From Streptomyces wuyuanensis (GTDB lineage: Bacteria; Actinomycetota; Actinomycetes; Streptomycetales; Streptomycetaceae), in the NCBI RefSeq assembly GCF_900103455.1, contig NZ_FNHI01000005.1, positions 62,001-126,000 on the forward strand: a stretch of 64,000 nucleotides of DNA, written 5' to 3'. Position 1 is the stretch's first letter, and every line of letters starts with the position of its first letter. A model generated the notes under the pieces. That model saw only the letters and a list, made by a program, of their open reading frames with translations, had not been told where the DNA came from and ran no database searches. Positions 5,398 to 28,721 of the stretch are shown here, piece after piece. Made by a program: the position numbers and the translations under genes.

Positions 5398-5425
5398 AAA
5401 GTACTGTAGCGCGTCAGGAGCTGAA

Positions 5426-11514: not shown

Positions 11515-13290
11515 TCACACGCCCTTGGGCGCACGGGCCTTGCGCGCGGACCCGTTCACGGCGGCCTCCGCGGCCACCTGCTCCTTGCGCAGCCGGAACC
11601 AGTAGAAGCCGTGTCCGGCCAGGGTCAGCAGGTACGGCCACTCGCCGATCGCCGGGAAGCGGACCCCGCCGATCAGCTCCACCGGATGGCGGCCGTTGTA
11701 CCGGCGCAGGTCCAGCTCCGTCGGCTGGGCGAACCGGGAGAAGTTGTTCACGCACAGGACCAGGTCGTCCGAGCCGTCCTCGGTCGCGGGCGCCTCGCGC
11801 AGGTACGCCAGCACGGCCGGGTTCGACGAAGGGAGTTCGGTGAAGGTGCCGAGGCCGAAGGCGCGGTTCTGCTTGCGGATCTCGATCATGCGCCGGGTCC
11901 AGTGCAGCAGCGACGAGGGCGACGCCATGGACGCCTCGACATTGGTGACCTGGTAGCCGTAGACCGGGTCCATGATGGTCGGCAGATAGAGCCGGCCGGG
12001 ATCGCAGGACGAGAAACCGGCGTTGCGGTCCGGGGTCCACTGCATCGGGGTGCGCACCGCGTCGCGGTCGCCGAGCCAGATGTTGTCGCCCATCCCGATC
12101 TCGTCGCCGTAGTAGAGGATCGGGGAGCCGGGCAGGGACAGCAGCAGCGCGGTGAACAGCTCGATCTGGTTCCGGTCGTTGTCGAGCAGCGGGGCCAGTC
12201 GGCGACGGATGCCGATGTTCGCCCGCATCCGCGGGTCCTTGGCGTACTCCGCGTACATGTAGTCGCGCTCCTCGTCGGTGACCATCTCCAGGGTCAGCTC
12301 GTCGTGGTTGCGCAGGAAGATGCCCCACTGGCAGTTCTTGGGGATCTCGGGCGTCTTGGCCAGGATCTCGGAGACCGGGTAGCGAGACTCCCTCCGCACG
12401 GCCATGAAGATGCGCGGCATCACCGGGAAGTGGAAGGCCATGTGGCACTCGTCGCCGCCCACCCCGTAGTCCCCGAAGTAGTCGACAACGTCCTCGGGCC
12501 ACTGGTTGGCCTCGGCCAGCAGCACCGTGTCCGGGTACTGGGCGTCGATCTCCTTGCGGACCCGCTTGAGGAAGTGGTGCGTCGCCGGGAGGTTCTCGCA
12601 GTTGGTGCCCTCCTCCTGGTACAGGTACGGCACGGCGTCCAGCCGGAAGCCGTCGATGCCGAGGTCCAGCCAGAAGCGCAGCGCGGAGATGATCTCCTCC
12701 TGCACCGCCGGGTTCTCGTAGTTGAGGTCCGGCTGGTGGGAGAAGAAGCGGTGCCAGTAGTACTGCTTGCGGACCGGGTCGAAGGTCCAGTTGGAGGTCT
12801 CCGTGTCAACGAAGATGATCCGGGCGTCCTGGAACTGCTTGTCGTCGTCGGCCCAGACGTAGTAGTCGCCGTAGGGCCCGTCCGGGTTGCTGCGGGACTC
12901 CTGGAACCACGGGTGCTGGTCGCTCGTGTGGTTCATGACGAAGTCGATGATGACGCGCATCCCGCGCTGGTGCGCGGCGTCGACGAACTCGACGAAGTCG
13001 GCGAGGTCGCCGAACTCCGGCAGCACCGAGGTGTAGTCGGCGACGTCGTAACCCCCGTCGCGGAGCGGGGACTTGAAGAACGGCGGCAGCCACAGACAGT
13101 CGACGCCCAGCCACTGCAGATAGTCCAGCTTGGCGGTGAGGCCCTTGAGGTCGCCGATGCCGTCGCCGTTGCTGTCCTGGAAGGTGCGGACGAGCACCTC
13201 GTAGAACACGGCGCGTTTGAACCAGTCGGGGTCCCGGTCCTTGGCGGGGGTGTCCTCGAAGGTGTCGTGGACGGGCTCATTGACGATCAT
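11515..13290 (-). CDS. treS: Maltose alpha-D-glucosyltransferase (trehalose synthase)
   Basis: A 591-residue GH13 enzyme that interconverts trehalose and maltose. The start ATG 13290 overlaps the glgE stop as ATGA. The N-terminal motif [17 protein letters not shown] and the [11 protein letters not shown] calcium-type loop are typical of TreS. Catalytic residues are the nucleophile Asp218 in [10 protein letters not shown], the acid/base Glu in [10 protein letters not shown], and the Asp of [10 protein letters not shown]. It has no C-terminal kinase fusion, in keeping with a separate mak gene downstream. It feeds maltose from trehalose into the GlgE route. Confidence 0.97.
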
Positions 13291-15392
13291 GATGTGGGTG
13301 ACCCTCCGGTCGGCGGGGACGGTCGCAGGACGACGATGTGCGCAGGCGTGACGCCCGGCTCGAGGCGCACATAGTTGGCCCTGCCCCAGTGATAGGTCTC
13401 GCCGGTGAGCTCGTCGCGCACCGGTACGGTCTCGTGCCAGTCGAGGCCGAGCTCCGGCATGTCAAACGAGACCGTCGCCTCCTGGGTGTGGTGGGGGTCG
13501 AGATTGACGACCACCAGAACGGTGTTCGAACCCGTTCGCTTGCTGTACACGATCACGGAGTCGTTGTCGGCATGATGGAAGCGGAGGTTCCGGAGCTGCT
13601 GCATTGCCGGGTTGCGCCGCCTGATCCGGTTGAGGGTCGTCACCAGCGGGGCGATGCTGCGCCCCTCGCGCTCCGCCGACTCCCAGTCACGGGGCCGCAG
13701 TTGGTACTTCTCCGAGTCCAGGTACTCCTCGCTGCCCGGCCGCAGGGGCGTGTTCTCGCACAGCTCGTACCCGGCGTACATCCCCCAGGTGGGGGAGAGG
13801 GTCGCGGCGAGCACCGCCCGCGCCTCGAACGCGGGCCGGCCGCCCTCCTGGAGGTACGCGTGCAGGATGTCCGGGGTGTTCACGAAGAAGTTGGGCCGCA
13901 TGCAGGCGGCCGCCTCGCCGGACAGCTCCGTCAGGTACTCGGTCAGCTCCTGCTTGGTGTTGCGCCAGGTGAAGTACGTGTACGACTGCTGGAAGCCGAT
14001 CGCGGCGAGCGTGTGCATCATCGCCGGGCGGGTGAACGCCTCCGCCAGGAAGACGACGTCCGGGTCGGTCCGGTTGATCTCGCCGATGACCTTCTCCCAG
14101 AAGACCACCGGTTTGGTGTGCGGATTGTCGACGCGGAAGATCCGCACCCCGTGCGCCATCCAGTGGCGCAGCACCCGCAGGGTCTCCTCGACCAGCCCCT
14201 TCATGTCGCGGTCGAAGGCGATGGGGTAGATGTCCTGGTACTTCTTCGGCGGGTTCTCCGCGTAGGCGATGGTGCCGTCCGCCCGGTGGTGGAACCACTC
14301 GGGGTGCTCGGTCACCCACGGGTGGTCGGGGGAGCACTGCAGGGCGAAGTCCAGCGCGACCTCCATCCGCAGGTCGCGGGCGCAGCGCACGAACTCGTCG
14401 AAGTCCTCCAGCGTGCCGAGGTCCGGGTGGATCGCGTCGTGGCCGCCCTCGGCCGAGCCGATCGCCCAGGGCACCCCGACGTCGTGGCGGCCGGCGTCGA
14501 GCGTGTTGTTCGGGCCCTTCCGGAAGGTGGTGCCGATGGGGTGGACGGGCGGCAGGTACACCACGTCGAAGCCCATCGCGGCGACGGCGGGCAGCCGCTG
14601 CGCGGCCGTCCGGAAGGTGCCGGAGACGACTCTGCCGCGCTTGACCCGGGCGCCCTCGGAGCGTGGGAAGAACTCGTACCAGGAGCCGAACAGCGCGCGG
14701 GTGCGCTCCACCTGGAGCGGCAACGGGGGCGAGGCGGTGACCAGTTCGCGCAGCGGATGGCGGGCGAGCGCGGCGAGGGCGTCCGGGGCGAGCGCGGCCT
14801 CCAGCCGTTCGCGGTCCGGCCGGTCCTTGTCGCGCAGGCCGTCGGCGGCGGCGAGCACGGCCTCCCGTCCCGCCTTCTTGGGAACGCCGGCGGCGGCGCG
14901 TTCGTAGAGCTCGGCGCCCTCGGCGAAGACCAGGGCGGTGTCGATCCCGGCCGGAATCTTGATGCCGGCGTGGTGGCGCCAGGTGGCCAGCGGATCGCTC
15001 CAGGCCTCGACGCTGTAGGTCCACCGCCCCTCGCTGTCGGCGGTGACATCGGCGCCCCAGCGGTCGGTGCCGGGCGCGAGTTCGCGCATCGGGGTCCAGG
15101 GGCCGGGCCGGCCCCCGGGATCCCGAAGGACGACGTTGGCGGCCACCGCGTCGTGCCCTTCGCGGAACACGGTGGCAGTGATCTGGAACGTTTCGCCGAC
15201 CGCCGATTTCGCGGGCCTTCGGCCGCAGTCGACGAGGGGGCGTACGTCCAGCACGGGAATGCGGCCAATCAGCGGGTTCACGGCATCACCTGGGGGCTGT
15301 GCGGGCTTGGCGGGTCGAACGGGCGGTCCCTCTTCACGGGGGGCGGGTGTTCTTTGTAGCTGCTCCGTTGACGACTGGCGGGCTGCGGGCAT
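13287..15392 (-). CDS. glgE: Alpha-1,4-glucan: maltose-1-phosphate maltosyltransferase
   Basis: A 701-residue GH13 subfamily 3 enzyme that transfers maltosyl units from maltose 1-phosphate to the non-reducing end of alpha-glucan. The start is ATG 15392 with GGAG seven bases upstream; it gives an N-terminus ([11 protein letters not shown]) like that recalled for S. coelicolor GlgE, about 26 residues longer. Conserved segments are [13 protein letters not shown] near residue 42, [17 protein letters not shown], and the catalytic Asp422 in [10 protein letters not shown], the Glu in FLAEAFTRP and the Asp in NTPDILHAY. It is the first gene of the glgE-treS-mak-glgB operon. Confidence 0.97.
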
Positions 15393-15949
15393 GGCCGCTC
15401 CTGTCCGCGTTCACTCGAATGGAAGGGTCGCGAGTGCGCTCCGGTGCGTACCGGGGGAGCCTTCCCACGCGCTTCGGGTCGGCAATCCGGTGGTCCGTTA
15501 ACTACTAGGGCGTAGGTCGCGGCACAAGGCCGCGGCCGTCCCAAGGCCGGTGCCCGGCCGCTTCCGGAGGCGTTCCGGCCGTGCGGCAGCCCTCGCTGTG
15601 AACATTCGAAGTCAACTTCGGTCATCTTCTTACCGTGTTGAGTTCGGTAATTCCTGATTACTAATAGAGAATCGATCGTCTACGGTCCTTTTTGGCCAAT
15701 CGACACGGTCGCCGGAATGATCGCGGAACCCACCGGCCGACTTTTGTTGAAAGGTTGCGAAAAAAGCTGCGTTCCCCTCCACGGGATGATTACTGTGAAG
15801 CCTCATCCGGAGTGGGGACTCCGGGTTCCGACGATCAGTCATGCGTGCACCCTCACCTGGGCACATCCATGCCTGAATCACGTTCGAAATACCGCGATGG
15901 CCTGCCGTGACCGGTGCACGCAGGCGATCGCATCGGGGGGTGGGGGGCA
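15393..15949. promoter_or_regulatory. Divergent promoter region between glgE and the five-gene cassette
   Basis: This 557-bp stretch has no convincing gene. Its central 15600-15780 part is much more AT-rich than the surroundings and contains two small palindromes: CGAAGT-CA-ACTTCG (15607-15620) and GTAAT-tcctg-ATTAC (15647-15661). It must carry the promoter of the glgE operon (minus) and probably that of the plus-strand cassette. No sigma-factor boxes can be assigned with confidence. Confidence 0.6.
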
Positions 15950-17824
15950 GTGCACCCGGACAACGCGGGAATCGGCTTCGACGACGATCTTCGGGCCGCG
16001 CTCCGGGCCGCCGACTTCCTGGAGGGCGGACCCGCCGCGCGCGCCGGCCGGCAGGCCGCCGCGGCACACCCTGCCGCGGCACCGGACCACCGCCGACTGG
16101 CCCATCTGATACCCGGCACCGCACCCGGACCCCACGCATGGAAACGGGCCTGGCGCGACGTCCTGACCCGGGAGAGCGCCCGCACCACCCGGTCGGGCCT
16201 GGGCTGGGCGCTCACCTCCCTCGCCGGCGGGCGGTTCCCCGCACTGGACGTCCTGGAGATCGGCTGCGAACGGCTGCGGCTGAGCCGGGTGGCCTACGAC
16301 GGCGACGGCCGGGGCCCCGCGACCCGGCCGCTCGCCGACTCCGCCTGGGGCGAGTTCACGGACGGCGGTCGGCACACCGGCTCCCCGGAGCTCCCCGCCG
16401 AGCCGCTGCGCCGGCTCTTCCTCCTCGCCGGAGGAACCGGACCCGCCGACGCGGACGTCACGGATCCGCTCGGCCGGGCGCTGCACACCTTCGTGCGCGG
16501 AACCCCGTTCGGCGCGGCCCCGCTCCTGGTCGTCGTCCGTGCCGCGGGCTGGCGGCCCGTCGAGCAGGCGGCCGGAACCCTGTGCCCGGAGACCGTCCCG
16601 GTGCTGCGGCTGCGGTTGCCGGCGCACTGGCCCGAAGGCCCCGGCGACCTGATCGGCGCGCTCCCGCTGCGCCACGCCATCTGGCTGGCCGCGGCCGACA
16701 TCGACGGCACCTCGGGCACGGTCGGACTCGTACGGCGCCCGCTCTTCCCGGCCGGCAGCCGCACCGGCGACCAGGCCGGCGGTGAACCGGGGAACGTCGT
16801 ACGGGTCCCCGTCGCCGCGCCGCCGGACGGAGCGACCACGGGGGAGAGCGCCGCCGTCGTCGTCTCCGCCCGCCCCGGTGAACCGCCCGCGCGGTGGCGC
16901 CCGGTACGGGCCGACCGCCTCGAACTCCCGCCCGGCTCCCGCGCCGCACTCCACTACCGGCTGTGCGGACCGGACCGGGTGGACCTCGCCTTCGAGGGAC
17001 ACCACGAACCGGAGACCGCGCCCTGGACCGTCCTGGCGCAGACCACGCCCCGGCGGCTCTCCCGCCCCCGCACCGTCGACCTCGTGCTCGCCGTGGAGGT
17101 CGCCGGCCCGCAGGCCGGCGGAGGCGCGGCCGTCGAGGAGCGCCTGCAGGAGGCGGCGGCCGTCGTGGCCGCCGTACGGCAGGCCGTCGGCGGCGGCGAC
17201 ACGCTCCGCGTCGGCCTCATCGGCTACCGCGACCACGCCCCGCTCGACCGCCCGCACGACAGCGACCCGATCGTGCACCGGCTCGGCATGGCGGCCGCGC
17301 AGACCGCGGAGCGCGCGCTGGCGGGCTGGCACCACAGCGCGCTGCGGCACGACTTCGCCACCGGACTGGAACACGTGCCGCACGAACTCGCCTCCCGCCG
17401 GCATCTGTGGCGGCCCGACAGCCACCGGGTGCTCCTCGTGATCGGCTCCCGGCCGCCGCATCCGCGCGCCGCACCGCCCAAGGTGCTGCGGCGCAGCGCG
17501 GCGGTGCGCATCTGTCCCGACCGCATCGAGTGGGAGACCGTGCTGGACGACGTGCGGCACTACGACGGCGTCTCCTGTGTCGCGGTCGTGGACGAGCCCG
17601 CGTGGATGGACCACCTCGAGGGCGAACCCCATCTCGCGCGCTGGGCGGACCGGGCGTGGGACCTCTTCGGCGCCGACGGCCGGTTCACCGCCGGCCACGA
17701 TCCGCGCCGGATCGCCTCCGCCGTGACGGCGCCGGCGCTCTGCCTCCCCGAGGACGGCGCCCCCATCCGGCTGGTCGTCCCCGACGGCGCGAGCGCGGAG
17801 TGGCTGCACGAGGCGGCCGGCTGA
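15950..17824 (+). CDS. Cassette protein 1: protein with degenerate vWA-like domain
   Basis: A 624-residue soluble protein from GTG 15950 (MHPDNAGIGFDDDLRAALRAAD), which follows a GGGGGG run; an earlier GTG at 15914 is less likely. Residues to about 300 form an unrecognised alpha/beta region. Residues about 365-610 look like a von Willebrand A fold: a first strand VDLVLAVEVAG, a helix, then LRVGLIGYRDHAPLD, a helix with many alanines, and HRVLLVIGSRPPHP. The MIDAS DxSxS signature expected after the first strand is missing, so metal binding is probably lost. It is the first gene of the five-gene cassette, 96 bp before the GTPase. Likely a scaffold or adaptor; no enzymatic motif is visible. Confidence 0.75.
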   Translation: MHPDNAGIGFDDDLRAALRAADFLEGGPAARAGRQAAAAHPAAAPDHRRLAHLIPGTAPGPHAWKRAWRDVLTRESARTTRSGLGWALTSLAGGRFPALDVLEIGCERLRLSRVAYDGDGRGPATRPLADSAWGEFTDGGRHTGSPELPAEPLRRLFLLAGGTGPADADVTDPLGRALHTFVRGTPFGAAPLLVVVRAAGWRPVEQAAGTLCPETVPVLRLRLPAHWPEGPGDLIGALPLRHAIWLAAADIDGTSGTVGLVRRPLFPAGSRTGDQAGGEPGNVVRVPVAAPPDGATTGESAAVVVSARPGEPPARWRPVRADRLELPPGSRAALHYRLCGPDRVDLAFEGHHEPETAPWTVLAQTTPRRLSRPRTVDLVLAVEVAGPQAGGGAAVEERLQEAAAVVAAVRQAVGGGDTLRVGLIGYRDHAPLDRPHDSDPIVHRLGMAAAQTAERALAGWHHSALRHDFATGLEHVPHELASRRHLWRPDSHRVLLVIGSRPPHPRAAPPKVLRRSAAVRICPDRIEWETVLDDVRHYDGVSCVAVVDEPAWMDHLEGEPHLARWADRAWDLFGADGRFTAGHDPRRIASAVTAPALCLPEDGAPIRLVVPDGASAEWLHEAAG

Positions 17825-17920
17825 GGACACGGCACGCGAACCGTGCGCCCGTCGGGCGTGCGGACCGGACAACGACCGTCGGCGGACGTCCATCCGCCGC
17901 CACTACTGGGGAGCCCCACC

Positions 17921-19363
17921 ATGCCCGAGGACGAAAAGCGCCCCGAGAGCACGCCGAAGGACGGCAAGCAGGACCGCAGGAGGGACGACCGGGCCGCGGA
18001 GGGGCCGTTCGCCGTCTGGGACCCGTCCACACTGGTCGGGGGCCGGGCCGCACTGCCGCCGGTACCGCCACCGGCCCGGCCGGCACCGTCGAACGGCACA
18101 GCACCCGCGGCCCCGGCCGCGCCCGCGCCTCCGGGGCCGCGTGAGGAGAAGGCACGGACGCCCGGCGCGGCGCCCGTGGACGCCGGCCGGCCCGCCGAGC
18201 CCGCGCCCGGCAGCTTCGCGGACAGGTTCGGCGGCCCCGAAGTGCTCGACAAGTCCGCCAGGCCCGCCAAGCCCGACAGGACGGAGAAGCCGGACAAGCC
18301 CGCGAAGCCCGCCCGGAAGGCCGCGGTCGCCGACAAGGCGGCCCCCAAGGACGAAGAGCGCCAGGAACCCGAGGCCCCGGCGTCGGCCCCGGAGTCGACC
18401 ATCACCCTCTGGGGCGGCATGGGCAGCGGCAAGTCCACGCTGCTCGCCGCGCTGTCCCGCGCGGTGCAGGACCCCATGTACGGCAAGTGGAGCATGTGGC
18501 CGGAGGACCACGCCTCCAAGAAGTTCCTCAGCGATCTCGCGCACATCCTCTACCGCGACCGCACGTTCCCGATGGCGACGCTGACCGAGCAGCGCCCCGT
18601 GCGCTTCACGCTCGCCGGGGACCTCACCGGGACGCGGTTCTCCCGCGCCGGCCGCAGGCGCTGGCGGCGCGGCGCCGACCGCGGCCGCGACCTGATGGAG
18701 TTCAAGGTCACTCTCCGCGACCTGCCCGGCGAGGCGTTCGACCTGCACTCGCAGACGGGTACCGCACTGGGCGGCAAGCTCATCAAGGACCTCGGGGCCT
18801 CCCGCGCCATGGTCTACGTCGTCGACCCCGTACGCGAGTGGCAGGTCAACGGCGACGACGGCCCGGTCGGCGACGACGCCCGGCAGAACGCGGACTTCTT
18901 CACGGACGTCCTCGCCGGGGTGGCGACCGAGGTCAACATGCGCGGCGAACGCCAGGGCAATCTGCTGCCGCACAGCATCGCCGTCTGCCTGGCGAAGTTC
19001 GACGACGACCGCGTCTTCCGCTTCGCCTGCGAGCAGGGCAACGTCCGGCTCAACCCGCGTACCGGACAGCCCGAGGTGATGGACGCCAAGCGGCTGTTCG
19101 ACGGGCTCTGCCAGGCGTTCCCGCACGGGAGCCTGCGCGAGATCAAGCAGCAGATCGAACTGTTCTTCGCCCCCGAGCGCGTCGGGTACTTCGTGTGCTC
19201 GGCCGTCGGCTTCTGGGTCGACCCCGAGCGGGGCTTCGACTTCGAGAACCCCTCCCTGGTGAACCCCGTGGACGACGCCGTCCGGTTCGTCGCCCCGCCC
19301 CAGCCCGTCAACATCCTCGAACCCTTCCTCTTCCTGCGCGGCGTCGGCCCGCAGGCTTCCTGA
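17921..19363 (+). CDS. Cassette protein 2: P-loop GTPase (DO-GTPase2-like) with disordered N-terminus
   Basis: A 480-residue protein from ATG 17921, with GGGGAG upstream. Residues 1-155 are low complexity (Pro, Ala, Lys, Glu, and KPDRTEKPDKPAKP repeats) and probably disordered. From residue 158 a GTPase-like domain follows: G1/Walker A GGMGSGKST (165-173), a G3-like DLPGE beginning at Asp267, and CLAKFDDD (Lys359, Asp361) as the likely base-specificity motif in place of NKxD. The order and the large insert RRRWRRGADRGRDLMEF fit the 'double-GTPase 2' type of TRAFAC GTPases as recalled. It has no membrane segment. Its neighbours suggest it is the NTP switch of the cassette. Confidence 0.75.
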   Translation: MPEDEKRPESTPKDGKQDRRRDDRAAEGPFAVWDPSTLVGGRAALPPVPPPARPAPSNGTAPAAPAAPAPPGPREEKARTPGAAPVDAGRPAEPAPGSFADRFGGPEVLDKSARPAKPDRTEKPDKPAKPARKAAVADKAAPKDEERQEPEAPASAPESTITLWGGMGSGKSTLLAALSRAVQDPMYGKWSMWPEDHASKKFLSDLAHILYRDRTFPMATLTEQRPVRFTLAGDLTGTRFSRAGRRRWRRGADRGRDLMEFKVTLRDLPGEAFDLHSQTGTALGGKLIKDLGASRAMVYVVDPVREWQVNGDDGPVGDDARQNADFFTDVLAGVATEVNMRGERQGNLLPHSIAVCLAKFDDDRVFRFACEQGNVRLNPRTGQPEVMDAKRLFDGLCQAFPHGSLREIKQQIELFFAPERVGYFVCSAVGFWVDPERGFDFENPSLVNPVDDAVRFVAPPQPVNILEPFLFLRGVGPQAS

Positions 19364-19398
19364 CCCGGCAGCCGAGAACCGCACGAGAGGAGACCGCC

Positions 19399-21996
19399 GT
19401 GGCACCGCGACTCACGGCCGACTGGGCCGTCTGGGGCAAACCGCCCCAGACAAACAGCGGTTACAAGGTGCTGGACGCCTTCCCGCCGGACCGGAGCGCC
19501 GACTTCAACGGCGACATCCACCACTGGTCCCCCGGCACCCCCGCGCCGGGCGACCGGCTGCCGTGGATCACGATCGGGCCCTGCACGGGCCCCGACGGCA
19601 CCGGCCGGGTGGGCGTCTTCGTCCTCGAGGCCACGGACGCCGTCGACCGCACCAGCCGTCCCATCTGCCGGATCAACCACTTCGCCGTGCCCGTCGCCGA
19701 CGTCGGCGCGCTCGGCCTGGGCTGGCACGCCCTGGCCGAGGCGGCGCTCGACACCGCGCCCCGGTCCGGCGCTCCGGGTGCCGTGCCGGCGGAACTGGCC
19801 GTCACGGACGACGGCCGGCTGCTCGATCGGGTGAGCGGCCTGATCACCGCACGGGTCACCGAGGGCAGCCGCTGGCTCGCGGCGGCGGCGGCCTATCTGC
19901 TGGACGGCACGGTGGTGGTCACCGGAGGCCGGGAGTACTCGGCGCTCGACCTGCTGCTCGTGCTCGACTGCGTGGCCGCCCTGCTGCCGTACGGCATGCG
20001 CAGCACGCTGTCCGCCGCCACCTGGACCTCTTCCGGCCAGGAGGTGCGCATGCGCCTCTACTGGGGCGTCGCCGACGAGGACCAGGGCCTGACCAGTCTC
20101 GCCTGGGGCGCGGGACTCCCGGACCTCGGCCGGCTGTCCCCCGAGGCGCGCTCCTACCACGATCTGCTGATCGAGGCGTGGACCCGGCACGGGAGCGACG
20201 TGGTCCTGGAGCATCTGGCGGACGCCCGCGAGCCGATGGACATCGACGGCCCGGACGCCCACGACGACGCCCTCCGGGTACTCGGCCGCCTCGACCCGGC
20301 GCTGGCCGTCGCCCAGGAGGTCCGCGAAGGGCGCGAGGTGGAGAGCGAACGCCTGGACGCGGCCCTGAGCCACCCGCTCGCCGACCCCCGTTCCGTGAGC
20401 CTGCTCTCCGAGCGGAAGCTCGCCGGGCACTCCACGGACATGGCCGCGCTGGCCCGCCATCTGGTCCAGCCGGAGGTCTCGCAGGCGTTCCGGAACCAGA
20501 TCGTGGACGATCTGCTGAACGACCGCCCGGACGGCGCCCTGAGACGCTTCGAGAGCGCGCGGGACGCCACGTCGGGTACGCGGGAGGGCCTGGAACCGCT
20601 CGACCAGGTCCTGGCTCTCGTCATCGACGCCGTGCGCGGCTGGACGGGGTCCGAGGCCCCGGACCCGGTGGTGGAGCAACTGCTCCCCGCCGTGGTGCCG
20701 TTCCCCGTGGGCACCATGGCCTTCACCCAGTCCCTGCTGCTGGCCACCCGAGGCCTCGCCGGCCGCCTCGTCCACGCCCTCTGCGCCGGGCCCGAGCCGG
20801 CGGCGGACGTCCTTGCCTGGCTCCGGTGGCTCGGCGACGGCTCCGCGCCCAAGGCGGCGGGCAGCGCCGAACTGGCCCCGCTGTACGAACTCCTGGAATC
20901 CGGGCACGGCACGCCCACCCGGAAGTGGACCACCGCGCACCCCGAGGCCGCCGTGCGGCTGCTCGGGGCGGCCGCCGCCTGCGGACTCGCCGAGCACGTC
21001 CTGCACGGCGACTTCTTCCAGGGCCTGATCAACTGTGCCTTCCGCACGACCCCGTCCGACGCCCTCGAGACCCCTCCCGGCATGCTGCTCAAAGGGGTTC
21101 TGGAGGTGCGGCCGCACGGAGTGCGGCCCGAGAGCGCGGCACGGTGGGACGTGCTGTGCGCCCTCACCGGCCTGCCGCCGCTCGCCCTCTTCACCCTCGC
21201 CGAGGCGCCGGAGCGGCACGGCTCCGCCGGGTTCGGCACCCGCCTCGACGGCTACATCACGACGCTCTGCTCGGAACTGGACTGCCACCCCGTGCGCACG
21301 CACGCCACGCTCGTCGTCCAGATGCTGCTGGAGGGCGTCCTCAACGTCGACCCGAAGACCGGGGAGGGGCCCGACCGGGCCGGCCGCGAGCTGACGGTGC
21401 GTCTGCTGGAGCGGCCCGGTCCCCACATCCAGGTGGTCGCCGACGCCGTACGGCGGCTGACCGAGGAGCCCCACTGGCACGAGACCGAGCACGACGAGCG
21501 ATGGCTGAAGCTGATCGCCGGCCGGCTGCCGCAGTTGCGGCCGGCCCTGGCGCTCCGCGCCGTCCACCGCGCGGCCCGGGCCGCGGACGGCGGTGCGCAG
21601 GACGTGCGCGACCTCGCCGCGCACCTGTACACGGCCCGCCGGGCCGGTGCCGACAGCGAGAGTCTCTCCGTGCCGCTGGAGTCCTGGGCCGCACGGGAGC
21701 GCACCGGCCACCGGGTCCTCGCGTTGCTCACCGCCTACCGCAAGACCTGGGAGGCCTACGCCGGAGCGGACCAGGCGCGGGAGGAGCGCCTGGACCTGGA
21801 ACTCGCCCTCGCCCGCGGCGGACGTGACTCCGGGGTCTGGCAGCTCTACCGCGACCACGCGATCCGGCAACTGACCGCGGAGCGCACCGGATTCGAGCAG
21901 GACATCCGTGACCTGCGGCGCAAGCAGCAGACGGCGGACGAGGAGATCGCCCGGCTGCGGAACCTCGGCGCGGGCTCCTTCCCCAGCCGTTCGTAG
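19399..21996 (+). CDS. Cassette protein 3: GTPase-associated large helical protein (GAP1-like)
   Basis: An 865-residue protein from GTG 19399 with GAGAGGAG upstream, 35 bp after the GTPase stop. Residues 1-130 are an alpha/beta domain (ADWAVWGKPPQTNSGYKVL, then PWITIGPCTG). The long remainder is mostly helical with short leucine-rich repeats like a helical scaffold. The last 90 residues (TAERTGFEQDIRDLRRKQQ) form a predicted coiled coil. No catalytic motif is seen. Position and three-part layout recall the GAP1 proteins that accompany DO-GTPases in predicted conflict systems, but this is by context and not by a diagnostic motif. A partner or regulator of the GTPase is the most likely role. 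Confidence 0.65.
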   Translation: MAPRLTADWAVWGKPPQTNSGYKVLDAFPPDRSADFNGDIHHWSPGTPAPGDRLPWITIGPCTGPDGTGRVGVFVLEATDAVDRTSRPICRINHFAVPVADVGALGLGWHALAEAALDTAPRSGAPGAVPAELAVTDDGRLLDRVSGLITARVTEGSRWLAAAAAYLLDGTVVVTGGREYSALDLLLVLDCVAALLPYGMRSTLSAATWTSSGQEVRMRLYWGVADEDQGLTSLAWGAGLPDLGRLSPEARSYHDLLIEAWTRHGSDVVLEHLADAREPMDIDGPDAHDDALRVLGRLDPALAVAQEVREGREVESERLDAALSHPLADPRSVSLLSERKLAGHSTDMAALARHLVQPEVSQAFRNQIVDDLLNDRPDGALRRFESARDATSGTREGLEPLDQVLALVIDAVRGWTGSEAPDPVVEQLLPAVVPFPVGTMAFTQSLLLATRGLAGRLVHALCAGPEPAADVLAWLRWLGDGSAPKAAGSAELAPLYELLESGHGTPTRKWTTAHPEAAVRLLGAAAACGLAEHVLHGDFFQGLINCAFRTTPSDALETPPGMLLKGVLEVRPHGVRPESAARWDVLCALTGLPPLALFTLAEAPERHGSAGFGTRLDGYITTLCSELDCHPVRTHATLVVQMLLEGVLNVDPKTGEGPDRAGRELTVRLLERPGPHIQVVADAVRRLTEEPHWHETEHDERWLKLIAGRLPQLRPALALRAVHRAARAADGGAQDVRDLAAHLYTARRAGADSESLSVPLESWAARERTGHRVLALLTAYRKTWEAYAGADQAREERLDLELALARGGRDSGVWQLYRDHAIRQLTAERTGFEQDIRDLRRKQQTADEEIARLRNLGAGSFPSRS

Positions 21997-22252
21997 CCCC
22001 GGCCGGCGCGCACGCAGTACCCGCGGCACCGACCCGCAGCACCCGCACCACCGGCCCGCAGTGCCGCAACACCAGCAGTGCCCGCAGCACCCGCAACACC
22101 AGCAGCACTCGCAGTGCCCGCACCACCGGCCCGCAACACCCGCAACACCAGCAGTGCCCGCAGTGCCCCAACACCCGCCCCACCGGCCTCTCCCATCCCG
22201 GCGCCACGCCGGGACCCGGGCCCGTTCACGCACGTCACAGGGGGGACCCTTC
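21997..22252. repeat. Degenerate tandem repeat spacer inside the cassette
   Basis: The 256-bp gap between the helical protein and the vWA gene is built from short CCGCAACACCAGCAGTGCCCGCAG-like words. CCCGCACCACCGGCCCGCA occurs at 22042 and 22117 (75 bp apart) and the CCGCAACACCAGCAGTG word at 22064 and 22140 (76 bp apart), so a roughly 75-bp unit is duplicated, itself made of smaller 9-12 bp words. No protein is convincing in any frame. Confidence 0.6.
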
Positions 22253-23860
22253 ATGCACATCATCCCCGCAAGGGCGCACCGCGCCCTGCTGCTCGCCCTC
22301 GGCGGCGCGCTGGCGGCGTCCGGCACGGCACCCGCCGCTGCCGCGCCGGCCGCCGACACCCCGCTCCCGCGCGACGGCATCTACCGCTCGCTGAAGGTCG
22401 ACGAGCTCCCGGCCGCCTATGTGGTCCTCATCGACACCTCCAGCTCCATGCAGGACCGCGGCCCCGACGGCGCACCGCTCTACGCCACCGTCAAGCGCCG
22501 GCTGGACGCCTTCCTCAGGACCCTCACCCCCGCCGACGAGGTCGCGGTCGTCACCTTCGGCCGGGCCACGAGCGTCGTCCACCCGATGTCCCCCGTCCGG
22601 GAGAAGGGCGGCGGCAGCCTCTTCGCCAAGGGGCTCCCGGCCACCGCGACGGAATCGGCCAGCGACCACGGCTCCGCGCTGGAGGCGGCCGCCGAGCAGC
22701 TCAACCGCAGCACCGCCCCGGTCGGCGCGGTGCTGCTGCTCACCGACGGCGCCGTCAACGCGCCGGGCAGCCCGTACGAACGCCAGGGCACCCCCGCCTG
22801 GAAGCGCCTCAAGGAGCGCTACTCCGCGATGGGGACCAACCGGAAGATCATCGGATACGGGCTGCCGCTCGCCGAGGGCACCCGCGTCGGCGAGGTCCTC
22901 GGTGGCGCGTTCGGCAACCCGCGCATCCTGCCCGTGGACCCGGCGGCACTCGGCACACAGCTCGCCGACGCCAAGGACCAGGTGAGCGCGGAGAAGGCCG
23001 TGAACGTCCTCCGGACGGACGAGGGCAAGGGGGTGGCGGTCACCGTCGACGGCGAGGGGGTGCGTACACCCGGATCCGGCGCCGTCACCCTCGCGACGGG
23101 GGACGCCACGGGCGCCCGTTCCAGGACCGTTCGGGTCACGCTGACGTCGAAGACCCGGCACGTTCCGCTGCGGGTGACCCTGCGGGCGGCCGCCCGGCCG
23201 GGAGGACCGGCCGTGGACGTCGAAGGCGCCGGACGCCCCGTGCAGCTGGCACCGGGGGAGAGCCGCACGGTCGGACTGAGGCTGGCGTGGAACCAGGACC
23301 CCGAGTTCGCCCTGATCCCGGGGGCCCGTGACTTCCACGCGGGGCTGGACCTGCGGGCCGAGGTCTCCTCGCCGTGGACGCCCGCAGTTCGAAGCTCTCT
23401 GGGATACGCGAAGTTCACCACGGGCGGTCCGACCGTCACCGACGTGGACCTGGTCGGGACGGTCCCCGGCCGGGCCCCCGGCTGGTTCTACCCCTTGGTG
23501 CTCCTCGTCCTCCTGCTGGGCGGGGCGGCGGCGTGGCGTTCCCACAAGCGCCGCAACCCGGCGCTCTCGGGGGTGCTGACCGTCACCGATCTGCGGACCG
23601 GGAGCCGCCAGACCGTGGTGCTGCGCGGCCGGGAGGTCAGCAAGGACACGGACGCGGGCGACGTCCGGGCCCGGATCACCGTGCGCGGCCGCCACGAGGC
23701 CGGCCGGCTCGTGCTCGTCCTGAAGTGCGACCGCGAGGCACCGCGCCCGGGCGGTGAGCCGCTGCGCGACACCGGTACGTGCGAACTCGGCAAGTCCACG
23801 GTGCTGTGCGGGATCGGCTTCTCCCACGAGACCGCGAACCAGGCCGTCGTCCTGCAGTGA
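22253..23860 (+). CDS. Cassette protein 4: secreted, membrane-anchored vWA-domain protein
   Basis: A 535-residue protein from ATG 22253, preceded by GGGGGG. An N-terminal signal peptide (RAHRALLLALGGALAASGTAPAAAAPA) is followed by a von Willebrand A domain, about residues 52-240, with an intact MIDAS: DTSSSM (Asp61, Ser63, Ser65), a TESASDHGSAL segment carrying the Thr, and LLLTDGAVNA carrying the Asp. A beta-rich region follows. One membrane helix (about residues 405-425, FYPLVLLVLLLGGAAAW) precedes a basic RSHKRR stop-transfer and a C-terminal cytosolic domain of about 105 residues. The adhesion/sensing module is therefore outside the cell and the tail is inside. It ends 55 bp before the kinase gene. 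Confidence 0.85.
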   Translation: MHIIPARAHRALLLALGGALAASGTAPAAAAPAADTPLPRDGIYRSLKVDELPAAYVVLIDTSSSMQDRGPDGAPLYATVKRRLDAFLRTLTPADEVAVVTFGRATSVVHPMSPVREKGGGSLFAKGLPATATESASDHGSALEAAAEQLNRSTAPVGAVLLLTDGAVNAPGSPYERQGTPAWKRLKERYSAMGTNRKIIGYGLPLAEGTRVGEVLGGAFGNPRILPVDPAALGTQLADAKDQVSAEKAVNVLRTDEGKGVAVTVDGEGVRTPGSGAVTLATGDATGARSRTVRVTLTSKTRHVPLRVTLRAAARPGGPAVDVEGAGRPVQLAPGESRTVGLRLAWNQDPEFALIPGARDFHAGLDLRAEVSSPWTPAVRSSLGYAKFTTGGPTVTDVDLVGTVPGRAPGWFYPLVLLVLLLGGAAAWRSHKRRNPALSGVLTVTDLRTGSRQTVVLRGREVSKDTDAGDVRARITVRGRHEAGRLVLVLKCDREAPRPGGEPLRDTGTCELGKSTVLCGIGFSHETANQAVVLQ

Positions 23861-23915
23861 GCCCGTCGCATCCCGCCGCATTCCCGCCCCAGCCGCCCGA
23901 GGAGAGGACCCCGTC

Positions 23916-25886
23916 ATGGTGAAGCCGCTGGACCCGGCCGTCGACCCGCCCGAGGCCGCGGGATTCCGGCTGCTCGGCAGACTGGGCACGGGCGGGTTCG
24001 GCACCGTCTACCTCGGCAGACCCTCGGGCGAGGAGCGCGGCCTCGACACCCTCGGGGCGGTGAAGCTGCTCAAGTCCGAGTTCACCGAGGACGCCCAGCA
24101 TCTGCAGCGTTTCCACCAGGAGAGCAAGGCGCTCGACCGCTGCAAGGGCGCCCGCATCCCCGAACTGCTCGTCTTCGACTTCGGTGCGGGCCGGCAGCCC
24201 ACCCTGGCGACGCGCTTCATCCCCGGCCTGTCCCTCTACCGGATCCTGGAGTCGCACGGGGGCGCACTGCCCCGCGACACGGTGCACTCCGTGGCCGCCG
24301 AGCTCGTCGACACCCTGAGCACCGCCCACAGCAAGGGACTTCTCCACCGGGACCTCCACCCCGGCAATGTGCTGATGACCCAGGACGGGCCCTGGATCAT
24401 CGACTTCGGGCTGACCCGCATCCGGGGCCAGCGGGTGACGGTGAGCCTGGACACCGTCATCGGCCATCCGCACTTCTGCGCCCCGGAACAGATCATGGGC
24501 CTGGCGAAGACGGTGAACGCCACCGACGTCTTCGGGATCGGCGCGATCGTGCTGTACGGACTGACCGGGCATCCGCCCTACACCGGGGAACGGGACGCCC
24601 GCGCCATGCTGCTGCGCCGGGTCTCGGGTGCCGCGCCCGACCTGTCGGGCCTGCCGGACGACCGGACGGGCCGGCTGGTCAGGGCCTGTCTGGCGGAGGA
24701 TCCGGCCGACCGCCCGACCCTCGCGGAGGTGGCGGACGGCTTCGGCGAACCGGGCACCCTCCGGCTCCCGGGCGACGTCACCCGTACCCTGGCCGACTAC
24801 CGCTCCGAGCTGAGGGAGCTGCTCACGGGAGCCGGCAACGGAGCCGACCTCACCGTCCCGTTCTGCCCCGGGCGGCGCAGCTGGAGCGCCGGCGCCGGCG
24901 AGTGGCCCCACCAGGTCGTGTCCACCGGCCACGGCAGCGTCGTGACCGCGGACGGCGGCGGCGACGTGCGCTGGCTCGACGCGGTCACCGGCCGGGAGCA
25001 GGTCAGGCACCGCGACTTCGCGGCCCCCGTCCGGTTGTGCGCGGAGGGCGCTCTGCTGCTGGTGTGCGACTCCGCCGGCCGGCTGGAGTCCTGGGACACG
25101 CGCGCCCGCACCCTCTGGTGGTCCGTCGCCGCCGGCAGCCTTCCGCACGCGCGGGTGCTGCTGCGCGGGCAGAGCGTGTTCCTCGGCGACGGCACGGGCC
25201 GGATCCACCACTTCGACGCCGTCACCCGCCGGGTCTGGTGGCGTACCGAACCGCTCACGGACTCCGCGGGCGACCCGGCGGAGCCGGTCGCGGCCGGTCC
25301 CCGGCACCTCTATCTGTCGGCCGGTCAGGGACGGGAACTCCTCGCGGTCGACGACGAGGAGGGCCGGGTCTGCTGGGACCGCGCCGTGCGGCTCCCCGCG
25401 CCCGCGCCGGCGGCCCCGCTGGCACTGGACGACGGGGTCGTGGTCGCCGACGGCGACGGCGGTCTGCGCTGTCTGGCCGCGGCCGACGGCGGCACGCTGT
25501 GGGAGGCCCGGCTCGGCGCGCCGGTGGTCGCCGCGCCCGTCCGCGTCGCCGACACGGTGATCGTCGGGGACACGGCGGGCACCGTGCACTGCCACAGCGC
25601 CAAGACCGGCGAGGAGATCTGGCGTGCCCAGTACGCCGACGGCGAGGAGTTCTTCTCGCTGTGCGCCGACGGGTCGGTCGTCTACGCGGGCGGCTGGCAC
25701 GGCCGGCTGCATCTGCTGGACGCGGCGGACGGCTCCTCGCTGCAGAGCTTCGACCTTGGCGGCCAGATCCTCGCCACCGCCCACGCCCCCGACGCACGCA
25801 CCGTCTACGCGGCCGCCTCCCACGGCACCCTGCACGCGCTCCCGGCGGCCGTCGGAGGGTCGGCGGGCGGAGCCCGTGCGCGGTAG
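23916..25886 (+). CDS. Cassette protein 5: serine/threonine protein kinase fused to a PQQ-like beta-propeller
   Basis: A 656-residue protein from ATG 23916 with GGAGAGG upstream. The N-terminal Hanks-type kinase has the glycine loop LGTGGFGTVY, Lys50 in AVKLLK, the catalytic HRDLHPGN (Asp146), IIDFG (Asp163) and a CAPEQ activation-segment end. The HRDLKPxN lysine is replaced by His148. From about residue 310 to the end there are repeated WWS/WDTR...LLV...GTG blades, a PQQ/WD-like propeller. There is no membrane segment between the domains, so the propeller is cytosolic, unlike the usual membrane-spanning PASTA or extracellular-propeller kinases. As last gene of the cassette it probably phosphorylates a partner, perhaps the vWA tail or GTPase. 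Confidence 0.85.
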   Translation: MVKPLDPAVDPPEAAGFRLLGRLGTGGFGTVYLGRPSGEERGLDTLGAVKLLKSEFTEDAQHLQRFHQESKALDRCKGARIPELLVFDFGAGRQPTLATRFIPGLSLYRILESHGGALPRDTVHSVAAELVDTLSTAHSKGLLHRDLHPGNVLMTQDGPWIIDFGLTRIRGQRVTVSLDTVIGHPHFCAPEQIMGLAKTVNATDVFGIGAIVLYGLTGHPPYTGERDARAMLLRRVSGAAPDLSGLPDDRTGRLVRACLAEDPADRPTLAEVADGFGEPGTLRLPGDVTRTLADYRSELRELLTGAGNGADLTVPFCPGRRSWSAGAGEWPHQVVSTGHGSVVTADGGGDVRWLDAVTGREQVRHRDFAAPVRLCAEGALLLVCDSAGRLESWDTRARTLWWSVAAGSLPHARVLLRGQSVFLGDGTGRIHHFDAVTRRVWWRTEPLTDSAGDPAEPVAAGPRHLYLSAGQGRELLAVDDEEGRVCWDRAVRLPAPAPAAPLALDDGVVVADGDGGLRCLAAADGGTLWEARLGAPVVAAPVRVADTVIVGDTAGTVHCHSAKTGEEIWRAQYADGEEFFSLCADGSVVYAGGWHGRLHLLDAADGSSLQSFDLGGQILATAHAPDARTVYAAASHGTLHALPAAVGGSAGGARAR

Positions 25887-26123
25887 ACCGGCGTCCGGGC
25901 CGGTCCGGGTCCGGGCGGCGGCGTCCGCCGCGTACTCATCCTGCGAACTCCTGTTCGTGGCGCGGGGCGCGGCACGGCCCCGGATCGGCCGATGGTGGCA
26001 CGGCTCGATGCGCCCTCCTCGCGCCGTGGTTGAGCCGGGCGGTGCGCGACTACGGTCGAGAAGTCGGACGGGCGCACAGCGTCGTGCGTCCCCGGATGAA
26101 CCTCCGTTTCGAAGGTGGGACCT

Positions 26124-28721
26124 GTGAAGGCCATTCGTCGATTCACCGTCCGCCCCGTCCTCCCCGAACCCCTCGCCCCGCTCAGCGAGCTGGCCCGCAA
26201 TCTGCGCTGGTCGTGGCATGCCCCGACACGGGAGCTGTTCCGCAGCGCCGATCCCGCCGGCTGGCGGGCGGCCGGCGGCGACCCGGTACGGCTGCTCGGA
26301 TCGGTGACCGCGGGCCGGCTCGCCGAACTCGCCACCGACCCGGAGTTCCTGTTCCGCGTCTCGGAGACCGCCCGCGATCTGGACGGGTATCTGCGCGGAC
26401 GGCGCTGGTACCAGGAGCAGTCCGCCGACGGGGCGCCGCTGCCCGCCGCCGTCGCGTACTTCTCGCCGGAGTTCGGCATCACCGCCGCGCTGCCGCAGTA
26501 CTCGGGCGGGCTGGGCATACTCGCCGGCGACCATCTGAAGGCCGCCAGCGACCTGGGAGTCCCGCTGATCGGCGTCGGACTGCTCTACCGGCACGGCTAC
26601 TTCCGCCAGTCGCTCTCCCGCGACGGCTGGCAGCAGGAGCACTATCCCGTCCTCGACCCCGACGAGCTTCCGCTGACCCTGCTCCGCGAGCCCGGCGGCA
26701 GCCCCGCGCAGGTCTCCCTCGACCTGCCGGGCGGCCGCTCGCTGCGGGCCCGCGTCTGGCAGGCGCAGGTCGGCCGCGTACCGCTGCTGCTGCTGGACTC
26801 GGACGTGGAGGAGAACGCACCGGGGGAGCGCGACGTCACCGACCGGCTGTACGGCGGAGGCAGCGAGCACCGGCTGCTCCAGGAGGTGCTCCTCGGCATC
26901 GGCGGAGTCCGCGCGGTCCGCGTGTACTGCCGGCTCACCGGCCATCCGGAGCCCGAGGTCTTCCACACGAACGAGGGACACGCCGGCTTCCAGGGGCTGG
27001 AACGGATCCGGGAACTCCTGCCGTACGGTCTCGACTTCGACGCCGCGCTGGAGGCCGTCAGGGCCGGGACCGTGTTCACGACGCACACCCCCGTCGCGGC
27101 CGGTATCGACCGGTTCGACCGCGAGCTGGTCGCCCGTCACTTCGGCGAGGGCGGCGAGCTGTCCGGGGTCGACGCGGGACGGGTGCTGCGGCTGGGCGTG
27201 GAGAGCTACCCCGGCGGTGACCCCGACGTCTTCAACATGGCCGTCATGGGGCTGCGCCTCGCCCAGCGCGCCAACGGCGTCTCCACGCTGCACGGCGCCG
27301 TGAGCCGCGAGATGTTCCGCGGTCTGTGGCCGGGTTTCGACACGGCGGAGGTCCCGATCACCTCGGTGACCAACGGGGTGCACGCACCGACCTGGGTGGC
27401 CCCCGAGGTGCTCGCCCTCGGCGACGACGTCGCGGCGGCCCCGGACGCCGACCTCTGGGAGCTGCGCCGCGCGCTGCGCGAGCAGTTGGTGCACGAGGTG
27501 CGGGAGCGGCTGTACGCCTCCTGGCGGCAGCGCGGCGCGGGGACGGCGGAGCTGGGCTGGATCGACGGGGTGCTGGACCCGGACGTGCTGACCATCGGTT
27601 TCGCCCGCCGCGTCCCCGCCTACAAGCGGCTCACCCTGATGCTGCGCGACCGGGAACGCCTGACGGAACTGCTGCTGCACCCGCGGCGGCCGGTGCAGAT
27701 CGTCGTCGCCGGCAAGGCGCACCCCGCCGACGACGGCGGGAAGCGGCTGGTCCAGGAACTGGTGCGGTTCGCGGACGACCCGCGGGTCCGGCACCGGATC
27801 GTCTTCCTGCCCGACTACGGCATGGCGATGGCGCGCAAGGTCCTGCCGGGCTGCGACGTCTGGCTGAACAATCCGCTCCGGCCGCTGGAGGCCTGCGGCA
27901 CCAGCGGGATGAAGGCCGCGCTCAACGGGGGCCTCAACCTGTCGGTGCTCGACGGCTGGTGGGACGAGTGGTACGAGCCGGACTTCGGATGGGCCGTGCC
28001 CACGGCCGACGGCACCGCCGCGCACGACCAGGACCGCCGCGACGACCTGGAGGCCGCCGCGCTCTACGGGCTGGTCGAGGAGCGCATCGCGCCGCTCTTC
28101 TACGACCGGGGCGCGGACGGGATCCCCGCACGCTGGACCGAGATGGTCCGGCGCACGCTCACCGCGCTGGGCCCGAAGGTGCTGGCGGACCGGATGGTGC
28201 GCGAGTACGTGGACCGGCTCTACGCCCCGGCCGCCCGAGCCCACCGGGTGCTCGCCCTGGAGCCCGGCGCGGCCGGTGAACTGGCCGCCTGGAAGGCCCG
28301 GGTGCGCGGCGCCTGGCCCGGTGTCTCGGTCGGTCATGTCGAGGCGGGGGCGGAACCGGGCGCGGCGGGCGCGGACCTGGGCGCGGCGGAGCTGGGCTCG
28401 ACGCTGGCCCTGCGCGTCTGCGTCACCCTCGGCGCACTGCGGCCCGAGGACGTGGAGGTGCAGGCCGTCGCGGGCCGGGTCGACTCGGACGACGCGATCG
28501 CCGATGCCCAGACCTTCCCGCTGAAGCCGGCCGTCGGTGGCCCCGACACGTCCAGCCGGTGGATCTACGAGGGCCCCCTCGCCCTCGACCGCACCGGCCC
28601 GTTCGGCTACACGGTCCGGGTGCTGCCCGCGCACCCGCTGCTGCCGCACGGTGCGGATCCCGGTCTGGTGGCGTGGCCGACCGAGGTGACGGGCGAGGGG
28701 GCGGGGGTGCTGATGCGCTGA
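26124..28721 (+). CDS. glgP: Alpha-glucan phosphorylase
   Basis: An 865-residue GT35 enzyme that releases glucose 1-phosphate from alpha-glucan. The start is GTG 26124 (MKAIRRFTVRPVLPEPLAPLSE) with AAGGTGGG upstream; a GTG at 26115 would add three residues. The first 110 residues are the domain typical of the actinobacterial 'alpha-glucan family phosphorylase' (NLRWSWHAPTRELF). The PLP-binding region is visible as EACGTSGMKAALNGGLNLSVLDGWWDEWY. It has its own 237-bp upstream region and ends before a strong bidirectional terminator. In S. coelicolor it lies next to glgE (recalled); here the five-gene cassette separates them. Confidence 0.95.
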   Translation: MKAIRRFTVRPVLPEPLAPLSELARNLRWSWHAPTRELFRSADPAGWRAAGGDPVRLLGSVTAGRLAELATDPEFLFRVSETARDLDGYLRGRRWYQEQSADGAPLPAAVAYFSPEFGITAALPQYSGGLGILAGDHLKAASDLGVPLIGVGLLYRHGYFRQSLSRDGWQQEHYPVLDPDELPLTLLREPGGSPAQVSLDLPGGRSLRARVWQAQVGRVPLLLLDSDVEENAPGERDVTDRLYGGGSEHRLLQEVLLGIGGVRAVRVYCRLTGHPEPEVFHTNEGHAGFQGLERIRELLPYGLDFDAALEAVRAGTVFTTHTPVAAGIDRFDRELVARHFGEGGELSGVDAGRVLRLGVESYPGGDPDVFNMAVMGLRLAQRANGVSTLHGAVSREMFRGLWPGFDTAEVPITSVTNGVHAPTWVAPEVLALGDDVAAAPDADLWELRRALREQLVHEVRERLYASWRQRGAGTAELGWIDGVLDPDVLTIGFARRVPAYKRLTLMLRDRERLTELLLHPRRPVQIVVAGKAHPADDGGKRLVQELVRFADDPRVRHRIVFLPDYGMAMARKVLPGCDVWLNNPLRPLEACGTSGMKAALNGGLNLSVLDGWWDEWYEPDFGWAVPTADGTAAHDQDRRDDLEAAALYGLVEERIAPLFYDRGADGIPARWTEMVRRTLTALGPKVLADRMVREYVDRLYAPAARAHRVLALEPGAAGELAAWKARVRGAWPGVSVGHVEAGAEPGAAGADLGAAELGSTLALRVCVTLGALRPEDVEVQAVAGRVDSDDAIADAQTFPLKPAVGGPDTSSRWIYEGPLALDRTGPFGYTVRVLPAHPLLPHGADPGLVAWPTEVTGEGAGVLMR

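Follow-up and report, generated by a model that had tools for sequence, protein, structure and literature searches.

What is the function of five genes of Streptomyces wuyuanensis, here called A to E, which stand in a row on the plus strand between glgE and glgP? They were analysed in a window of 64,000 nucleotides (the whole stretch of DNA examined; contig NZ_FNHI01000005.1, positions 62,001 to 126,000), in which open reading frame (ORF) calling and the Pfam matches of the flanking genes bore out an earlier note that had placed five same-strand genes there. Our answer is that the cassette A-E probably forms a membrane-to-GTPase switch of the DO-GTPase/GAP1 kind, in which D and E would signal to B, a likely GTPase, and C is predicted to set the state of B. 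We regard it as a new, divergent variant of these systems, and its predicted structure offers a lead for the class as a whole. The genes, separated by 96 (A-B), 35 (B-C), 256 (C-D) and 55 (D-E) bases, and their parts are as follows.

15914-17824, plus strand: gene A, predicted soluble pseudo-vWA protein, 636 amino acids (aa) from GTG (alignment of relatives, hydropathy)
17921-19363, plus strand: gene B, 480 aa, best read as a DO-GTPase-type GTPase (motifs, profile-profile comparison)
17921-18385, plus strand: variable head of B (identity across copies)
18386-19360, plus strand: G domain of B, with GGMGSGKST, DLPGE and AKFD (motifs)
19399-21996, plus strand: gene C, GAP1-like, 865 aa (predicted structure, sub-cut-off GAP1-M)
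19399-20208, plus strand: C residues 1-270, predicted longin-DENN-like module, equivalent to GAP1-N plus GAP1-M (model)
20209-21798, plus strand: predicted helical solenoid of C, among the fastest-changing parts of the cassette (model)
21829-21972, plus strand: predicted terminal long helix of C (model)
22253-23860, plus strand: gene D, membrane-anchored vWA protein, 535 aa (Pfam, hydropathy)
22421-22750, plus strand: vWA domain of D, with DTSSS and TDG (Pfam, motifs)
23480-23536, plus strand: hydrophobic span of D, followed by a predicted cytosolic beta-rich tail (hydropathy)
23916-25886, plus strand: gene E, Ser/Thr kinase with propeller, 656 aa (Pfam, NCBIfam)
23970-24731, plus strand: kinase domain of E
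about 25047-25850, plus strand: PQQ/BamB-type propeller of E

The earlier note had started gene A at a later GTG near 15950; the gene itself stands, but its longer frame opens with the GTG at 15914.

In Pfam scans B gave sub-threshold P-loop matches only, with DO-GTPase2 at E 0.11, and against the DO-GTPase2 profile (PF19993) it scored 12.6 bits, below the cut-off of 27, with distant relatives at 17.7-23.4 bits. Profile-profile comparison by hhalign with a canonical set (19 of 20 DO-GTPase2 domains from other members of the genus, L081 being left out) put the probability at 96.5 when the close B set was used, at 98.6 with the distant one and at 98.8 with 39 sequences. In the PDB, B was closest in sequence to Obg (0.0026), which we take to be a TRAFAC GTPase. 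Moreover, in 5 of 16 regions from other actinobacteria (see below) the B-C pair has, no more than about 6 kb away, a gene that matches the canonical profile at 5e-24 or better, and the one that was checked, in L124, scored 33.6 bits against the Pfam cut-off of 27. From these hhalign probabilities, the canonical DO-GTPase2 genes near B-C pairs and the TRAFAC-type PDB match, B is best read as a divergent DO-GTPase; the DO-GTPase identity proposed earlier is thus upheld by the profiles, although B stays below the Pfam cut-off. The glutamate of DLPGE in the window protein (DxxGE in 14 of 39 members of the wider family) may be the conserved Walker B glutamate which the text of Kaur et al. gives as a DO-GTPase2 feature (2020, PMC7159879).

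The GAP1-like gene C lies directly downstream of the GTPase gene in the cassette copies, and its sequence alone says little. C shares 97% identity with a Streptomyces wuyuanensis protein. Whole C had a single Pfam match (0.24, an unrelated family) and none to GAP1-M, whereas residues 1-270 matched GAP1-M (PF20014) over residues 171-217 with 13.2 bits against a cut-off of 24 (E 0.11); sub-cut-off GAP1-M matches were found in 15 of 30 N-terminal pieces of C, the best at E 0.001. GAP1-C was not listed for C in the Pfam scans, the helical part not having been compared with the canonical one. Profile comparison of C with canonical GAP1 reached a probability of 3.8 at most, a protein search with a broad C alignment returned only proteins already found, and PDB sequence searches with C gave no match to longin-DENN proteins. 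A conserved arginine like that of Nprl2, which we take to be catalytic there, was looked for by eye in C and was not consistent between the close and distant groups. Two features of the C sequence are recorded here: 1) hydropathy also flags residues 182-200 and 585-603, which both fall within predicted helices of a soluble-looking fold and were not read as spans, and 2) the motif [GS]K-x(7-9)-[YF] occurs within residues 1-24 (window 19399-19470) in 26 of 30 relatives and resembles the conserved GK and DF described for TagF in the text of PMC5995506.

The predicted fold of C is more informative. Its model, built from 14 sequences with a pLDDT (predicted local distance difference test) of 84.4, has an alpha/beta part at residues 1-235, followed by a helical solenoid and, at the end, one long helix. 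C had earlier been described as a helical/coiled-coil protein, which fits the solenoid and the long helix but not the alpha/beta residues 1-235. The order of elements is strand-strand-helix-three strands, helices, and helix-strand-helix-helix-two strands. A model of canonical GAP1-N2/M (18 of 20 sequences, without L050 and L054; pLDDT 87.4) has its main elements in the same order, with extra short helices at 55-60 and 229-235; agreement between the two here means element order and shared structure matches. Among solved structures, DENND1B was the first match of the canonical model (E 6.9e-4), before TagF and DENND1A. VIA-align scored it 8.8 with DENND1A (240 residues, 4.7 A), 8.6 with DENND1B, 8.2 with a DENND10 entry and 7.1 with TagF, followed by an Asgard longin domain, folliculin, GATOR1 and SEA subunits and the Lst4 longin domain; TagF chains extended down to 4.6 and the first unrelated chain scored 4.4. 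The GATOR1 chains are presumably Nprl2, and PA0076 is taken to be TagF. For C itself, VIA-align gave TagF 8.5 (243 residues, 4.8 A), DENND1A and a DENND10 entry 7.6 each, a chain of an FLCN-FNIP2 entry 7.3 and DENND1B 6.7, among helical-repeat chains matching the tail; nothing was drawn from the many helical-repeat matches of the solenoid. Taken alone, the C scores lie in a range where a common arrangement is possible. Since the two models agree and their matches form a coherent list, however, the N-terminal alpha/beta part of C is predicted to resemble the longin-DENN module found in TagF and in Rab exchange factors, and C is predicted to set the nucleotide state of B through this module. The GAP1 partner that the earlier note had proposed is thus favoured by the predicted fold and the sub-cut-off GAP1-M matches, although no Pfam GAP1 cut-off is passed. 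More tentatively, and with slightly more doubt than belief, we suggest that GAP1 proteins including C may be bacterial longin-DENN regulators, so that DENN would not be a eukaryotic invention and multicellular bacteria would use these proteins together with DO-GTPases as a switch in immunity, controlled by exchange or hydrolysis and comparable to folliculin-Rag and DENN-Rab.

Among A-E, only D and E gave Pfam matches above cut-off, and NCBIfam and PADLOC gave at most weak hits for A-D. No Pfam, NCBIfam or PADLOC match was obtained for A. Its vWA-like domain, recognised by eye, lacks the DxSxS metal site and reads EVAG in the window; in 16 aligned relatives a glutamate occupies this position, as E-x-[ASG]-G in 15. 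The A relatives of L038 and L039 have a DxSxS string elsewhere than at the aligned position, and six distant relatives carry N-terminal CPVC-type zinc-ribbon-like motifs. D matches VWA_2 (1.1e-8) and has DxSSS and TDG in all ten close copies, its metal ion-dependent adhesion site motifs being in place. Its one hydrophobic span (residues 410-428) is followed by basic residues and by a tail with the conserved motif CELGKSTVLCGIGFSH in the window, and D is predicted to face outward. GAP1-N2 systems have an FNIII-repeat component; Pfam listed no fibronectin-type domain for A-E, the D beta-sandwich not having been modelled. E combines Pkinase (9.5e-30) with a PQQ_2 propeller; its kinase lysine, HRD, DFG and APE motifs are kept in the ten copies, and its best NCBIfam match, AfsK, is far below cut-off (178 of 1300 bits).

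Do these genes belong together? C relatives were detected in 12 of the 199 Streptomyces genomes searched, the window genome included (full length in 5 and over the N-terminal part only in 7, all 7 with a B-type GTPase gene directly upstream); the cassette is therefore not housekeeping. When an alignment of the GTPase was run against 84,980 species genomes, eight loci came up, and a ninth was added by scanning plasmids, so that with the window there are ten close copies, each with the order and orientation A-B-C-D-E. Defined by shared neighbours, they occupy six sites: 1) the window, 2) L022, L023, L024 and L026 together, 3) L021 with the plasmid copy L029 (NZ_CP109366.1), and 4-6) L025, L027 and L028 singly. 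The genes thus travel jointly between loci, including one plasmid, as the earlier note had anticipated; they are neither scattered elsewhere nor fixed at this place as housekeeping genes in nearly all Streptomyces. Across the ten copies, the pairwise distances of the A-E proteins show correlations of 0.92-0.97, as expected of jointly inherited genes. Mean identity is highest for the G domain of B (76%), the kinase of E (75%) and the vWA domain of D (73%), and lowest for C past residue 270 (40-45%), the N-terminal part of A (44%) and the head of B (39%). In these counts L030-L033 duplicate L026, L024, L028 and L027 and are uncounted, L017/L037 (3.9 kb) were left out of gene calling, and locus genes come from a simple caller that truncates some genes at the start and overlooked C in L127, where C-B adjacency was taken from match coordinates; the B gene of L024 was recognised via its relatives rather than its own BLAST row. 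Neither viral contigs nor phage records contained a match to B, and a phage origin of the cassette is accordingly unsupported.

More distant relatives show the set with other partners. A, B, C and D occur together in six distant Streptomyces loci, of which two also contain E in a different order; as the kinase-propeller joins A-D in two orders, it probably belongs to the system. Four of these loci (L034, L035, L036 and L040) read A-B-C-X-D; next in the row come a radical-SAM protein, one unknown protein and a tandem AAA+ protein (domains scanned in L035). In L038 a second GTPase, a second, short C with the N-terminal part only and the kinase-propeller precede A-B-C-D (domains scanned), and L039 has the same layout as far as the fetched region reaches. 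Among other actinobacteria, the analysis covered 16 regions, from the 19 non-Streptomyces genomes with a match (G395, G439 and G464 being left out); B and C are adjacent in all 16, an A-type gene is present in 11 and a D-type gene in 3. Five C proteins from other actinobacteria, of 1,158-1,231 aa, have two GAP1-N/M-like modules per chain and recall two-subunit longin-DENN complexes. At E 0.001 neither GAP1-M nor DO-GTPase2 was matched in the window genome itself; canonical GAP1-M is also present in at least five distant-C genomes (G037, G048, G067, G074 and G115). The variant loci are listed below.

L034 7189-19844, L035 6792-19261, L036 150-13144, L040 262-13648: radical-SAM (Fer4_12)/AAA+ operon, replacing the kinase-propeller and including two unknown proteins
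L038 6586-19874, L039 3-13006: double-GTPase form of seven genes, with a short C of 298-301 aa (the longin-DENN-like part alone) beside the kinase-propeller
L117 10694-14170, L119 3863-7522, L122 4064-7759, L123 9911-13411, L125 11373-14858: two-module C genes

The place of the cassette was compared with the same interval elsewhere, for which the coordinates are these.

13287-15392, minus strand: glgE (Pfam)
26115-28721, plus strand: glgP (Pfam)
15516-26016, no strand: stretch without counterpart at other glgE-glgP sites

The adjacency of glgE and glgP, which the earlier note gave for S. coelicolor, is supported: they are divergent neighbours in the 29 Streptomyces genomes with both on one contig (37 genus members searched), spaced by about 2 kb or less in 21 and by 4.8-17 kb in 8, the window included. 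In 15 other gaps, with gene names assigned by eye from translations, the seven wide ones contained no called gene matching A-E, carrying a monooxygenase/MFS/regulator cluster (5), an ABC transporter (1) or assorted regulators and hydrolases (1), and the eight narrow ones contained no called gene (4), a subtilisin-like gene (3) or a regulator (1). The gap (window 15393-26114; L128-L142) is a variable site in Streptomyces. Since its contents vary and flanking homology ends at about 15515 and resumes at about 26017, it is a permissive site without functional tie to glucan metabolism.

How would the cassette work? We suggest that D may bind a ligand outside the cell as the input sensor, that E would relay the signal by phosphorylating the D tail, A or the variable head of B, with A possibly acting as a scaffold, and that C would dock on B and promote exchange or hydrolysis. 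The output could lie with the variable solenoid of C, which might recognise an invader or assemble a complex that brings the hypha to a halt. We infer the sensing, relay and switch steps, in the order vWA, kinase, GTPase put forward by the earlier note; the setting of B by C draws on predicted folds. Protection from phages or other invaders is our leading guess at the purpose and the least certain step of the scheme, favoured by sporadic occurrence, several sites and the plasmid copy. Several results weigh against such an immune role: i) PADLOC-DB 2.0.0 had no model for A, C or D and only mad8 at 0.016 for B, E being matched only through its kinase domain (among the best 25 of 34 families), ii) no effector domain was recognisable in A-E, iii) no clear defence island was seen among the scanned neighbours, and iv) metabolic families lead the Pfam matches of the neighbours (AMP-binding, FAD oxidoreductases and MFS, among the best 25 of 90). 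The scans covered 58 of 71 called locus neighbours (L029 omitted, its flanks being as in L021) and 17 of 40 window genes. PADLOC hits of the neighbours were scattered over general domains (mad3 in 3, mad8 in 2, AriA in 1, and kinase models, among the best 25 of 29); a second scan of ten of the proteins traced the kinase models to a single kinase-TPR protein, and showed that one of the mad3 hits covers just part of a protein from the window. The conflict function raised by the earlier note therefore gained no backing from defence models, islands or effectors.

The cassette could also be read differently, as a developmental or cell-envelope module rather than an immune one, in which a vWA sensor facing the wall and a kinase resembling AfsK would adjust a GTPase that controls hyphal growth or the stress response. 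The AfsK match of E, the predicted outward orientation of D, the metabolic families most frequent next to the copies (same best 25 of 90) and the failure to find a viral or phage copy of B all agree with this, but presence in 12 of 199 genomes, at different sites and on a plasmid, fits an accessory system better, and we consider such a module rather unlikely. Another view would restrict the unit to B and C, with D, E and A as separately acquired neighbours that stay together. The scarcity of D-type (3/16) and A-type (11/16) genes in other actinobacteria would fit, as would the four Streptomyces loci with radical-SAM, tandem AAA+ and two unknown proteins in place of E; this is nevertheless improbable in view of the constant order of all five genes in the ten close copies, the six distant loci that keep A-D (two of them with E, in another order) and the correlated distances across all five proteins.

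A role in glucan metabolism, finally, is suggested by position only and is barely credible: glgE and glgP were unmatched in the fetched flanks of all nine other copies, the seven other wide glgE-glgP gaps hold unrelated genes, and Pfam and NCBIfam found no metabolic domain in A-E beyond the enzyme-like profile of the propeller. On the evidence of those flanks, this role was rejected. Regulation of type VI secretion proper was rejected as well, VipB/TssC, the one core gene tested, having no match in the window genome (a control search matched E. coli).

How does the proposed switch compare with known systems? The prediction of DO-GTPase/GAP1 systems dates from 2020 and was made on gene neighbourhoods; according to the text of that paper GAP1-N2 is counted in 904 organisms, GAP1-N2 systems sit near the membrane, one actinobacterial theme combines a kinase, PP2C and vWA, and two paralogous GTPases occur in 38% of DO-GTPase systems (Kaur et al. 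2020, PMC7159879). The cassette agrees with the GAP1-N2-type systems, as described there, in a GTPase gene followed by a GAP1-like gene, a membrane vWA partner found in some, the theme of an active kinase with a vWA protein and multicellular hosts. It differs in that 1) its B and C fall below Pfam cut-offs, 2) it has one GTPase (two in L038 and L039), 3) PP2C (by Pfam), tubulin and HSP70 are not among its five proteins, 4) it has a second, metal-free vWA-like protein, and 5) its kinase carries a PQQ-type propeller; a SpoIIE-type phosphatase gene does lie beside the L028 copy. MglA-MglB and the Streptomyces conservons likewise pair a bacterial GTPase with a dedicated regulator encoded alongside, but there the regulators are of the roadblock and the GTPases of the Ras-like family, neither of which Pfam listed for A-E. 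With the eukaryotic longin-DENN regulators (DENND1A/1B, DENND10 and folliculin-FNIP2), C and canonical GAP1 would share the predicted N-terminal fold and a GTPase partner, whereas C is bacterial, has no PDB sequence match to them and a long helical tail, and its activity is a prediction. In the Rab35-DENND1B complex, contact is made through the longin lobe. For TagF we know of no GTPase partner. According to the text of Lin et al. (2018, PMC5995506), its repression works through binding to Fha and does not depend on the kinase pathway, and the window genome, having no VipB/TssC match, probably has no type VI machine.

The class is known, while the branch represented by the cassette lies below family-library cut-offs and its gene set departs from the published themes; some of the loci may be in the supplementary lists of Kaur et al. 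As far as its main text goes, that paper mentions neither longin, DENN nor TagF (PMC7159879), and in part of a 2012 DENN survey the module is discussed in eukaryotes, with only the longin domain derived from prokaryotic regulators. Literature searches with bacterial and prokaryotic DENN phrases found no report, none being recognised among the titles listed by related searches, and no experimental study of DO-GTPase/GAP1 systems was found among the papers searched, where, apart from the 2020 prediction, one paper has the term DO-GTPase a single time. The predicted longin-DENN fold turns GAP1, a name without a function, into the testable claim that C is an exchange or activating factor of the adjoining GTPase. 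If true, this would place a DENN-like GTPase regulator in bacteria and supply a testable mechanism for many bacterial systems that are so far uncharacterised, of which the cassette offers a compact five-gene version suited to transfer into laboratory Streptomyces.

Some minor features remain. The GC content of the cassette (74.8%, against 72.1% for the window) gives no hint of recent arrival, and a scan for sigma-70-like promoters found none. In L028 a PAS-GAF-SpoIIE phosphatase gene (5417-7201) lies directly upstream on the opposite strand and a gene for an FG-GAP-repeat protein (17454-20531) directly downstream; in L024 the kinase-TPR protein (19361-21085) lies about 2 kb past E, its kinase domain being only partly in the called frame. 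Much of the unusually long C-D gap of the window is occupied by a repeat with periods of about 9, 18, 22, 27 and 49 bases.

22013-22180, no strand: degenerate tandem array between C and D

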